Shown piece by piece: positions 16,539 through 39,576 of a stretch of DNA of 64,000 nucleotides. The notes below the pieces were generated by a model. It searched no databases. It saw nothing but the letters and a program-made list of their open reading frames with translations, and had not been told where the DNA came from. This DNA is from Falsiroseomonas bella (lineage in GTDB: Bacteria > Pseudomonadota > Alphaproteobacteria > Acetobacterales > Acetobacteraceae), in the NCBI RefSeq assembly GCF_003173615.1, contig NZ_QGNA01000001.1, positions 1,178,001 to 1,242,000 of the forward strand. The letters run 5' to 3'. A program made the position numbers and the translations under genes. The first letter of the stretch is position 1; each line of letters begins with the position of its first letter.

Positions 16539-17384
16539 TCAGCGTGCTCCGGGCGCCGCCGCGGAGGTCGCGGCGGGCAGTGATCCAGGTGTTGCGGGCG
16601 GCGCCGCGGCTGTCCAGGGCGGCAGGCGGCCGAGCCGGCTTTCCATCACGACGAGGAAGGGCGGCCAGCCCGGCGGCGCGGGCATCACGCGTCCCCAGCT
16701 GTCCGCGGGAAAGCGGGTGAGCATCACCGTGTCGAGCACATTGCCGCCCACCGCCTCGACCACGCCGGGCGCGGTCCGCACCACGATGTCGCAATGCATC
16801 GGCCGCGCGCGCCCGTTGTCCGCCGCCCGATGCGTCCAGTGCAGCAGAGGGCGCGGGCTGCGGTCCGAGCAGAGCAGGTCGCCCGGGCGCGGCGCATACT
16901 CGGTCGGCGCATGCGGCATGAAGGCGGCGGTGTCCGGGTAGCTCCGCGCATCGGCGATCAGCCCGTCCAGGTAGAAGGCATGCGTGGCGCTCGGCGGGAA
17001 TTCCCGCGCATCCACCCCGGCCGAGACGAACACCCAGGAGATGAAGGCCGCGGACCAGGCGAAATCGCCCCAGAGGGGGATGCCTGGCGGAAGCTGGCCC
17101 GTCAGCACCGCCTCGTAGCGGATGCGGTTGTGCAGGATGGCGCCGTGGTCGGTCGGCACCGCCCGCCAATAGGCCAACACGCGCGGGAAGTTCCGCGGGT
17201 CCGATTCGGGGCTGTCCTCCGTCGGCTCGGTGAAGGCGTCGCGCTGGCGCGCGCCCCAGTCCTGCCACTCGGCGAGCGCGATGCGCACCACGCGCTCCGC
17301 GGCGGAGGGCGGGTAGGTCACGGGCGGCTTCGCGGCGCAGGCCGCCACGGCGAGGACCGGCAGCAGCGCTAGACCGTGCTTCAC
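16539..17384 (-). CDS. DUF2272 family lipoprotein
   Basis: A 281-residue predicted lipoprotein. The signal LALLPVLAVAAC has its lipobox cysteine at residue 16 when the GTG start at 17384 is used. That GTG overlaps the stop of the upstream gene (GTGA), which decides the start. The body contains the DUF2272 segments AERVVRIALAEWQDWG, FAWSAAFISWVFVSAGV and PRPGDLLCSDRS, and resembles NlpC/P60-like folds with a Cys and a late HCDIVV His. A peptidoglycan or cell-wall role is plausible but unproven. Confidence 0.8.
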   Translation of the reverse strand: MKHGLALLPVLAVAACAAKPPVTYPPSAAERVVRIALAEWQDWGARQRDAFTEPTEDSPESDPRNFPRVLAYWRAVPTDHGAILHNRIRYEAVLTGQLPPGIPLWGDFAWSAAFISWVFVSAGVDAREFPPSATHAFYLDGLIADARSYPDTAAFMPHAPTEYAPRPGDLLCSDRSPRPLLHWTHRAADNGRARPMHCDIVVRTAPGVVEAVGGNVLDTVMLTRFPADSWGRVMPAPPGWPPFLVVMESRLGRLPPWTAAAPPATPGSLPAATSAAAPGAR

Positions 17385-37812: not shown

Positions 37813-38115
37813 ATGTGGGGCATGAGCAACGCAAGCAACGGGGGCGGTGACGCCCCGGCGCCCAAGGTGGCGCAGATCCCGATCCCCCCCGGCGACCCGA
37901 CGGGGCCGCAGCCCGGCCGGCCGGTGCCGGAGCCCAATCCCGGCCCGCCGCCCGCGCCCGACATGGACCCGCCCCTGCCCGGCGAGAAGCGCCCGCCCGC
38001 CGGCGACCCGCCGAAGGAGGAGCCGATCCGGCTGAAGGAAGTGGGCGGCCCCAGCGGGCCGGAACCCACCCGCTACGGCGACTGGGAGCGGAAGGGGCGG
38101 GTCAGCGATTTCTGA
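37813..38115 (+). CDS. DUF1674 protein, SDHAF4-like assembly factor
   Basis: A 100-residue protein. Residues 1-75 are proline-rich and probably disordered. The C-terminal [20 protein letters not shown] with final SDF is the DUF1674 signature shared with the mitochondrial succinate dehydrogenase assembly factor SDHAF4, which protects flavinylated SdhA before complex assembly. GGGAGG at 37801-37806, 6 bases before the ATG, supports the start at 37813. The neighbour htpX is divergent. Confidence 0.88.
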
Positions 38116-38340
38116 CCGATTCGCCCGGGCCGCGACTCGGCGCGACTCGGCGGAACGGCCTTGTGGGTGAAAAAGCGAATCGCCCCAAGGTCTTGTGGCA
38201 GTGGAACGCTTGTCCGGGGGTCAGCGATTCGTTCGCGCGACTCGGACCAAGGGACTGAAATTACAAAGTTTCCCTCGGCCGATTCGGCGCATGATTCACG
38301 CCCCGTTCCGTTTGCGGGGCGAATCGCGAACCGGTGCGAT
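38116..38340. other. CGANTCG/GANTC site array between convergent genes, candidate replication origin
   Basis: This 225-base gap between the ends of two convergent genes holds nine GANTC sites (starting 38118, 38134, 38144, 38177, 38226, 38239, 38281, 38293, 38321). All but 38293 sit in the palindrome CGANTCG. CGCGACTCGG occurs three times (38131 and 38141 in tandem, and 38236), and GGGTCAGCGATT twice (38099 and 38218). An AT-rich stretch spans 38254-38271 (14 of 18 A/T). One 7/9 DnaA-box match (TGTGGGTGA) is at 38162-38170. GANTC is the CcrM methylation target in alphaproteobacteria. Origin function is inference; the array itself is plain. Confidence 0.5.
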
Positions 38341-39522
38341 CTAGGAACGAGTGCCGGCCGGCCGCTTCGCCCCCCCCGCGCCGCCCAGCCAGAAGCCAAG
38401 CAGCAGCATCCCCGCCGCCACCGCGAGCAGGGCGGCAACAGGCCCCAGCGTCGCCCGCCCCGCGCCCATCAGAACGGGGCCCAGCGACTGGCCGAGGAAG
38501 AAGCTGCAGGCATGCAGCGCCACGGCGCTGCCTCGGGCCTGGGGTGCGACCTCGGTCACCCGCGTCTGGATGGAGGAATGGATCATGTAGAAGCCGGTGC
38601 CGAGCACGAGGCAGGCTCCGACCCCGATCCAGGCCGAGGGCGCCAACGCCAGCCCCGCCAAGCCGGTGGCGCAGACCACGCCACCCAGCCGGATCGTCCC
38701 CGACTGCCCCACGCGTCGCAGCAGCGCCGGTGCCATGGCGGCGAAGACGAAGCCGCCGAAGGCATAGGCGGCGATGGCGAGGCCCGCCTCCCGCGTGCCG
38801 CCCTGCCCGCGCTCGGCGAAGAGCGGCGCGAGGAAGGGGAACACGCCGAGCAGCATCGCGCCTTCCAGGAACACCGCCAGATACAGACGCCGCGCGGCCT
38901 TGAGGCCGAGGATGCCGCGATAGCGGGTGAGCGCCTCCACGATGTCGAAGCGCTTCGCCGGGGGCGGCGCGGCCTCGCGCAGCACCAGGAAGCCCGACAG
39001 GCTCGCCGCCGCACAGAGCAGGATCACGCCGCGCCAGCCGATGAAGGGCTCGAGCAGCGCGGCCAGGGCGCCGCCGGCGATGGACCCGGTCAGCCCCGCG
39101 ACGAGCAGGCGCGACAGCGCGACCTGCCGCCGCTCCAGCGGGACGTTGTCGCCGATGCTGGCGATGGCGAGCGGAAACACCCCGCCCGCGGCCATGCCGG
39201 CGACCACGCGCAGCGCGCCGAGCGTCGCAAGATCGGGTGCGAAGGCGGAGGCGGCGAGCGCCAGCGTCAGCACCGCGAGGCAGGCGCGCATGACGCGGCG
39301 CTTGCCGAGCGCATCGCCGACCGGCCCCAGGATCGGCTGGACCAGCGCATAGGGCAGGGCGAAGGCGGTGGAGAGCAGGGCGACGGTCGCCACCGCCGCG
39401 CCGAACTCGCCGGACAGCACCGCGACGAGCGGATCGAGCGCGCGCCCCGCAAGCGATGAGGCGCCCGCGCCGAGGCCGAGGACGAAGATCAGCCGCGTGG
39501 TGGGGTCGGAGAGGAGCGGCAT
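38341..39522 (-). CDS. MFS transporter, drug/arabinose efflux type
   Basis: A 393-residue major facilitator with twelve hydrophobic segments. The loop 2-3 signature appears as GPVGDALGKRRVM, and the first half has ALRVVAGMAAGGVFPLAIASIGDN, typical of DHA1-type efflux permeases. It exports small molecules using the proton gradient; the substrate is unknown. I placed the start at 39522 (MPLLSDPTTR) because the 18 residues upstream are basic and non-conserved in look. It is downstream of acs on the same strand but separated by a strong hairpin. Confidence 0.85.
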   Translation of the reverse strand: MPLLSDPTTRLIFVLGLGAGASSLAGRALDPLVAVLSGEFGAAVATVALLSTAFALPYALVQPILGPVGDALGKRRVMRACLAVLTLALAASAFAPDLATLGALRVVAGMAAGGVFPLAIASIGDNVPLERRQVALSRLLVAGLTGSIAGGALAALLEPFIGWRGVILLCAAASLSGFLVLREAAPPPAKRFDIVEALTRYRGILGLKAARRLYLAVFLEGAMLLGVFPFLAPLFAERGQGGTREAGLAIAAYAFGGFVFAAMAPALLRRVGQSGTIRLGGVVCATGLAGLALAPSAWIGVGACLVLGTGFYMIHSSIQTRVTEVAPQARGSAVALHACSFFLGQSLGPVLMGAGRATLGPVAALLAVAAGMLLLGFWLGGAGGAKRPAGTRS

Positions 39523-39576
39523 GCCCGCCGAGGTCTGCGCCGGACCGCCGCGCCGCGCAATCCGGCGCGGCATCAA

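Follow-up and report, generated by a model that had tools for sequence, protein, structure and literature searches.

Escherichia coli carries chromosomal sites that regulate DnaA, namely datA, DARS1 and DARS2, and to our knowledge it is mainly from this species that control sites outside the origin are known. GcrA and LexA normally act at promoters. The GcrA promoter motif of Caulobacter is YGAKTCK, an extended-motif preference that the same study did not find in Brevundimonas (PMC7987155), and the alphaproteobacterial LexA box is described as GTTC-N7-GTTC (PMC3091678). In Caulobacter the proven origin is the region separating hemE from a DUF299 gene (PMC1914354); GANTC sites are also reported in this origin, hemi-methylation after replication is reported as shown for Caulobacter, and an intergenic GANTC excess of more than 1.5-fold is given as general in alphaproteobacteria (PMC3973325). 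Here we describe a conserved intergenic element rich in GANTC, of which no description was found in the open-access literature; it is more probably a new chromosome control site than the replication origin.

The window, meaning the whole 64-kb stretch of DNA analysed, corresponds to C1:1178001-1242000 of a 5.94-Mb source assembly in 14 contigs (genome code G000). Going by the names of its relatives, this genome probably falls within the Roseomonas/Falsiroseomonas group of Acetobacteraceae. Nine GANTC start within 38118-38321, eight of them as CGANTCG (starting at 38117, 38133, 38143, 38176, 38225, 38238, 38280 and 38320), and no other 210-base stretch of the window, which contains 64 GANTC altogether, holds more than two. 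The original prediction had named these nine sites and eight heptamers from the sequence, and window-wide motif counts bear it out; its expectation of about 0.6 GANTC and well under one CGANTCG agrees with base composition, which gives ~0.5-0.7 and 0.07 per 208 bases, respectively. CGANTCG is rarer in the window overall than expected from dinucleotide shuffling (18 observed, 41 expected) and is clustered in 38117-38326. In the 464 kb searched of the 5.94-Mb genome the array was the densest GANTC cluster, the runner-up stretch containing 4 GANTC and 2 CGANTCG, and its density is far above the intergenic excess general in alphaproteobacteria. The gap lies between convergent gene ends, as had been predicted, with a DUF1674 gene and a major facilitator superfamily (MFS) transporter gene flanking the array. 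The features referred to below are as follows (positions in the window):

37813-38115, + strand: left neighbour, gene for a DUF1674 protein of 100 aa, 3' end towards the element (PF07896, E=8.1e-15)
38117-38326, no strand: array of nine GANTC, eight as CGANTCG (motif counts)
38153-38166, no strand: GAAC followed by the half-site CTTGTGG, box 1 (alignment on box 1)
38183-38198, no strand: imperfect dyad CCCCAAGGTCTTGTGG, consensus CCACAAGNNCTTGTGG, comprising box 2 and box 3 (alignment A1)
38220-38245, no strand: GTCAG and core CGATTCGTTCNNGCGACTCGG, with two GANTC 13 bp apart (core scan, column frequencies, profile model R1)
38247-38262, no strand: position of an IHF-like site, consensus CCANNNNNTTGATTC, diverged here to CTGAAATT (A1 consensus)
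38294-38308, no strand: LexA-box-like direct repeat, here ATTC-N7-GTTC, one base off strict (repeat counts)
38341-39576, - strand: right neighbour, MFS transporter gene, 3' end towards the element (PF07690, E=6.4e-45)

Other details of the prediction held in part. Single CGANTCG are indeed scattered elsewhere in the window, but the list given was short of those at 17202, 27598 and 29076, and the AT-rich block at 38254-38271 is present, but extends over merely ~18 bp. Two repeats had also been named and both were found, GGGTCAGCGATT twice (38099 and 38218) and CGCGACTCGG three times (38131, 38141 and 38236), but the first GGGTCAGCGATT copy belongs to the coding end of the DUF1674 gene. This pair, at 38099-38110 and, preceding the core, at 38218-38229, differs at both positions in several Elioraea loci and is either a coincidence or an old duplication.

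A search around the DUF1674 gene revealed arrays of like kind 3' of this gene in many of 30 relatives' loci. Scanning 84,980 species for the core CGATTCGTTCNNGCGACTCGG returned 75 genome stretches with one match each, 71 of them in one clade whose members bear the names of genera that we take to belong to the Acetobacteraceae, or are named "Acetobacteraceae" or "Rhodospirillales bacterium"; four remain (L062, L069, L075 and L078) under names of other phyla, and these were taken as chance matches and excluded from the counts, leaving 71 loci. With up to two mismatches the core was found in 128 of 397 family genomes, part of these by chance. A sequence-only profile also matched 128 of the 397 at E<=0.01; the weakest 24 (E 2e-4 to 0.01) may be chance and were put aside, and exactly one match at E<1e-5 per genome was found in 104 of the 397, belonging to 23 genera. 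The profile model R1 places the element of the window at C1:1216157-1216309 of G000 (E=6.8e-20). The array is not absent from close relatives, part of the outcome named beforehand as telling against its interpretation, since by the same profile 12 of 13 genomes of the window's genus, the window's own included, carry the element. Two alignments were made, A1 from 62 of the 71 loci plus the window (63 sequences) and A2 from 49 of the 71. Since the loci were chosen by the exact core, its invariance in them is by construction, while the flanking boxes are free of that bias. Elements average 4.96 GANTC per 220 bp (range 2-11 per element) against 0.22 in control windows; two of the 4.96 define the search and the extra 2.96 are independent of it. 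The element of one relative (G045; C1:2014019, L224) has no dense cluster, only the core GANTC pair and one more at +109, suggesting that the number of GANTC is flexible and that the core is kept. A plasmid-borne element was rejected, as no match was found in the plasmid collection.

The genes beside the element vary. Of the 71 loci, 44 have a DUF1674 gene within 1.1 kb of the element's left side and 34 an MFS gene within 400 bp of its right side, so that 21 loci have both, 23 the left neighbour only, 13 the right only and 14 neither, these last two groups including three loci (L058, L083 and L102) in which the left sequence is too short to judge. In six Roseomonas loci (L045, L071, L077, L085, L098 and L104) the element is upstream of a purH-like gene, and HemW-, NhaA-, solute-binding-protein-, GH15-, SDR-, TadA- and CinA-like genes were recognized as other neighbours from reading the translations at 17 loci, the last four kinds replacing MFS on the right side in some. 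With both neighbours and orientation varying and no terminator found, we reject the reading that the element serves a given neighbour as its promoter, 3' UTR or terminator. The variability on both sides indicates that the element is stand-alone, not the UTR, terminator or promoter of one gene.

Alignment A1 and position counts give a fixed order of parts from left to right: a GAAC-N7-GAAC-like repeat, CTTGTGG, the dyad CCACAAGNNCTTGTGG, GTCAG with the core, CCANNNNNTTGATTC, and TTC-N7-GTTC. Among 61 loci aligned on box 1, GAAC stands four bases ahead of TTGTG with 85-97% conservation per base. In the 2.914 Mb searched the dyad had three matches with up to one mismatch, all at the element, and nine with two mismatches, four of them at the element. 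The IHF-like position has strongly conserved columns (A 0.96 at +24; T 0.99 and G 0.96 at +31/+32) and a conserved TTGATTC block, with a complete IHF motif at +23 in 14 of the 71 loci and anywhere in the region in 17. On the right, TTC-N7-GTTC was found in 46 of the 71 loci and the strict GTTC-N7-GTTC in 28, compared with four relaxed and no strict repeats in 2450 control windows; only seven is favoured as the gap, each other length from 3 to 13 occurring in at most 7 of the 71. The left GAAC-N7-GAAC-like repeat is present in 31 of 69 loci in relaxed and 7 of 69 in strict form, and strict repeats on both sides, in inverted orientation, in 5 of 69; when gap lengths were compared on this side, seven gave 29 of 69 and any other length from 3 to 13 at most 7. 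Conservation in A1 ends ~110 bp after the core. A partial second copy of the left half occurs within ~300 bp upstream of the element in four genomes (G015, G106, G204 and G238), and CTTGTG is found near -192 in L049, L087 and L100.

The spacing of these parts is quantized. Relative to the core, TTGTG of box 1 starts at -75 to -73 or -65 to -62 (found in 41 of 71 loci), that of box 3 at -42/-41 or -32/-31 with two exceptions (n=32), the right repeat at +59 or +69 to +71 (n=46), and the left repeat at -94 to -92 or -83 to -81 (n=31). Each of the four has two registers 10-11 bp apart, one helical turn, as would be imposed by several proteins assembling into one complex on a single face of the DNA.

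Candidate readers of these motifs are encoded in the clade. GcrA (PF07750) was found in all 13 genomes tested, including that of the window, as was a RAMA domain of CcrM type (PF18755), the CcrM assignment being by the RAMA domain alone; among the controls, the GcrA search also matched one archaeal control and the RAMA search only Caulobacter. A weak second match to the GcrA family occurs in the window's genome (C1:37810-38127, E=3e-5). All eight CGANTCG fit the YGAKTCK motif, as given in PMC7987155, on one strand. The element thus has in common with GcrA/CcrM-controlled promoters both the motif and the presence of the two protein families, but in the window it lies between gene ends, has no promoter consensus and is tied to no target gene. 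Similarly, its direct repeat, strict in part of the loci and one base off in the window, has the gap of exactly seven of the alphaproteobacterial LexA operators described in PMC3091678, but its repeats are within a larger array, sometimes on both sides and inverted, and in the window no SOS gene follows them. In the searched DNA, 28 strict GTTC/GAAC-N7 sites are located outside predicted genes; of eight for which adjoining genes were checked, one is at an SOS locus. This site, a GAAC-N7-GAAC in the relative G088, adjoins ssb and uvrA, which are divergent and typical of the SOS response, and it fits use of the GTTC-N7 LexA box in the clade; the genes beside the other seven are not evidently SOS genes. 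The suggestion in the original prediction that the array might be a methylation-state-dependent binding region finds support at the sequence level, in that the element is conserved, genes of CcrM and GcrA type are present and the eight heptamers fit YGAKTCK.

The element as observed, conserved, single-copy, independent of its neighbours, ordered, helically spaced and accompanied by CcrM- and GcrA-type genes, is best explained, tentatively and as a real possibility, as a cis-acting element of ~170-200 bp of which the array is the visible part, forming a methylation-clocked nucleoprotein control site outside the origin that would resemble datA and DARS in logic. One copy in about a hundred genomes while the neighbours change argues for a chromosome-level job. 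From the motifs we infer which proteins might bind, that the sites would be methylated, and the function. Several proteins would assemble on one helix face: the CTTGTGG/CCACAAG sites would take a putative factor, an IHF-like protein would bend the DNA, and GTTC-N7-GTTC at one or both ends would be read by a further factor, probably LexA. CcrM would methylate the GANTC cluster; once a fork has passed, the cluster would stay hemi-methylated until the late-cycle synthesis of CcrM, a state that may alter the binding of GcrA or of the putative CTTGTGG factor. The complex could then, like datA or DARS, adjust replication or the cell cycle, clocked by methylation. A checkpoint site, at which fork passage (through hemi-methylation), DNA damage (through the paired LexA-type sites) and the putative CTTGTGG-binding protein would be integrated on one phased complex controlling re-initiation or division, seems to us rather unlikely, if conceivable. 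With datA and DARS the element shares its single-copy, non-coding and intergenic nature, and probably a place outside the origin; like them it may have a site for IHF and an ordered array of several proteins. It differs in having no consensus DnaA boxes and in the addition of the GANTC/CcrM cluster and the GTTC-N7-GTTC repeats. As DnaA boxes are lacking, the likeness is architectural only and we do not file the element as a member of that group. Other points against the control-site reading are the IHF motif, incomplete in most loci and diverged in the window, the scarcity of strict left repeats and of SOS loci among the checked sites, the variable number of GANTC, the polarity fit in G121 and the loose distance to parS.

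Because GcrA and LexA are transcription factors, a serious rival is that the element is a compact promoter, or divergent pair of promoters, of a short unannotated transcript, at which GcrA and sigma70 would act on methylated YGAKTC, LexA would repress at the GTTC repeats and IHF would bend the DNA. The motif matches are those of the Caulobacter GcrA promoters (YGAKTCK, as reported in PMC7987155) and of the alphaproteobacterial LexA box (GTTC-N7-GTTC, as reported in PMC3091678). Both regulators would here be at their normal kind of site, but the gap in the window shows neither a promoter nor a terminator consensus, with no sigma70-like match found in 37900-38500, there is no conserved -10-like block in A1, the end of conservation ~110 bp past the core leaves no conserved product, and the 11-bp steps in spacing oppose a conserved reading frame across the element. 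Nor do the variable neighbours, or the RNA searches, favour a short transcript. The sole Rfam match, to a miRNA model, scored 22.8 bits where the cut-off is 69, and RNAalifold on the 63 sequences returned seven pairs, all inside the core and none outside, a weak result that says little because the core was fixed by the search and is hence invariant. A structured RNA is likewise without support, there being no Rfam match near its cut-off and no pairs outside the core. We consider the promoter possible, though on the unlikely side.

More doubtful is a role in chromosome segregation, anchoring or folding, in which the methylation-clocked control site proposed above would be replaced by a centromere-like site or organiser read by the putative CTTGTGG-binding protein. 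The single copy, independence of neighbours and a dyad that with up to one mismatch is found nowhere else in 2.9 Mb would suit such a site, as would its location less than 0.8 Mb from parS in six of eight usable genomes with long or few contigs. However, a normal ParB-type parS motif was present in all 36 genomes searched and no par-like gene was seen among the nearest neighbours examined. The array-parS distances, taken from long contigs or few-contig genomes, were 58 (G121), 139 (G292), 209 (G088), 393 (G045), 681 (G372), 789 (G365, across contig ends) and 1635 kb (G311, along the contig), with G321 giving no value; in draft genomes a shared contig itself biases this distance to short values. 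The distance is loose, spanning 58-789 kb plus one of 1.6 Mb.

The original prediction had put forward the chromosome origin as one possible identity of the array, and this is not supported on balance: we consider it improbable, the array being probably not the chromosome origin. Its resemblance to the Caulobacter crescentus origin, located between hemE and DUF299 as reported in PMC1914354, is in the GANTC sites, the IHF-like site, the intergenic location and the single copy, and the cluster recalls the GANTC reported in that origin (PMC3973325); the element is also found where synteny breaks. Unlike that origin, it is not at hemE-DUF299 in the window or at the loci with identified neighbours, its window neighbours being DUF1674 and MFS rather than hemE and a DUF299/COG1806 gene, and it has no CtrA sites, DnaA boxes or strongly AT-rich region. 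TCCACA/TGTGGA occurs within 110 bp in merely 4 of the 71 elements, while TTGTG, half of a DnaA box, is upstream of the core in 51 of the 71; the CtrA site TTAA-N7-TTAA is absent from all 71. An AT-rich unwinding region was not found, A+T in 20-bp bins being 0.32-0.45 with a peak of 0.445 at +20 against ~0.27 in the flanks, a mild rise. No cluster of the consensus TKATCCACA was seen at parS or the array in the DNA scanned (for G365, among the matches listed).

Two relatives have a separate hemE-ppsR locus, and these intergenic regions are probably their chromosome origins. In G121, where the locus was identified by Pfam, 312 bp (C1:1664072-1664383; L158:14072-14383) contain 10 GANTC and 3 TCCACA-type boxes at a distance of 75 kb from the array. 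The homologous region of G088 (~C1:566.7-567.0 kb; L185:16697-16995) has 3 GANTC and 2 TCCACA-type boxes and is separated from the array by 222 kb. The G121 region also contains GTCAGCGAGTCGCCGACTC, which is similar to the array core. In the examined stretches of G000 and G045 hemE was not found, being expected just beside parS.

Replication polarity, proposed with the original prediction as a check and run in four relatives, divided: it speaks against the array in G088 and G045, for the array over hemE in G121, and is undecided in G365. Polarity was taken from a change-point fit on counts of the KOPS-like GGGNAGGG, with values in log units below the best point, a measure that is coarse and inconsistent. 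In G121 the best point (1720 kb) is 19 kb away from the array, which fits better (-4.8) than parS (-7.5) or hemE (-10.8), and in G365 the array is itself at the optimum (0; parS -1.0). In G088, by contrast, the best point is at 560-620 kb, with parS and hemE at the optimum (both 0) and the array at -10.0, and in G045 it is at 1400-1540 kb, with the array at -6.7 and parS at -1.9. The sampled C1 profile of the window's own, fragmented genome is flat. GC skew alone prefers the array to parS in three of the four (G121, G088 and G365, not G045), by a margin of 0.5-1.6 log units; at the 70-73% GC of these genomes it is too weak to place an origin. A strand classifier based on octamers gave noise when it was trained in one genome and applied to a second, and a 16S search, which matched 1 of 12 genomes, was left unused.

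A chance pile-up or local degenerate repeat without function, to which some GANTC being short repeats (CGCGACTCGG three times) and the varying number of GANTC between genomes might point, is refuted by the conservation of the element, with strong profile matches, one per genome, in 104 genomes from 23 genera and phased motifs, and we give it next to no credence.

If the methylation-clocked reading of the element is true, it would make feedback of CcrM timing on the chromosome cycle outside the origin directly testable, and would point to a putative further DNA-binding protein.
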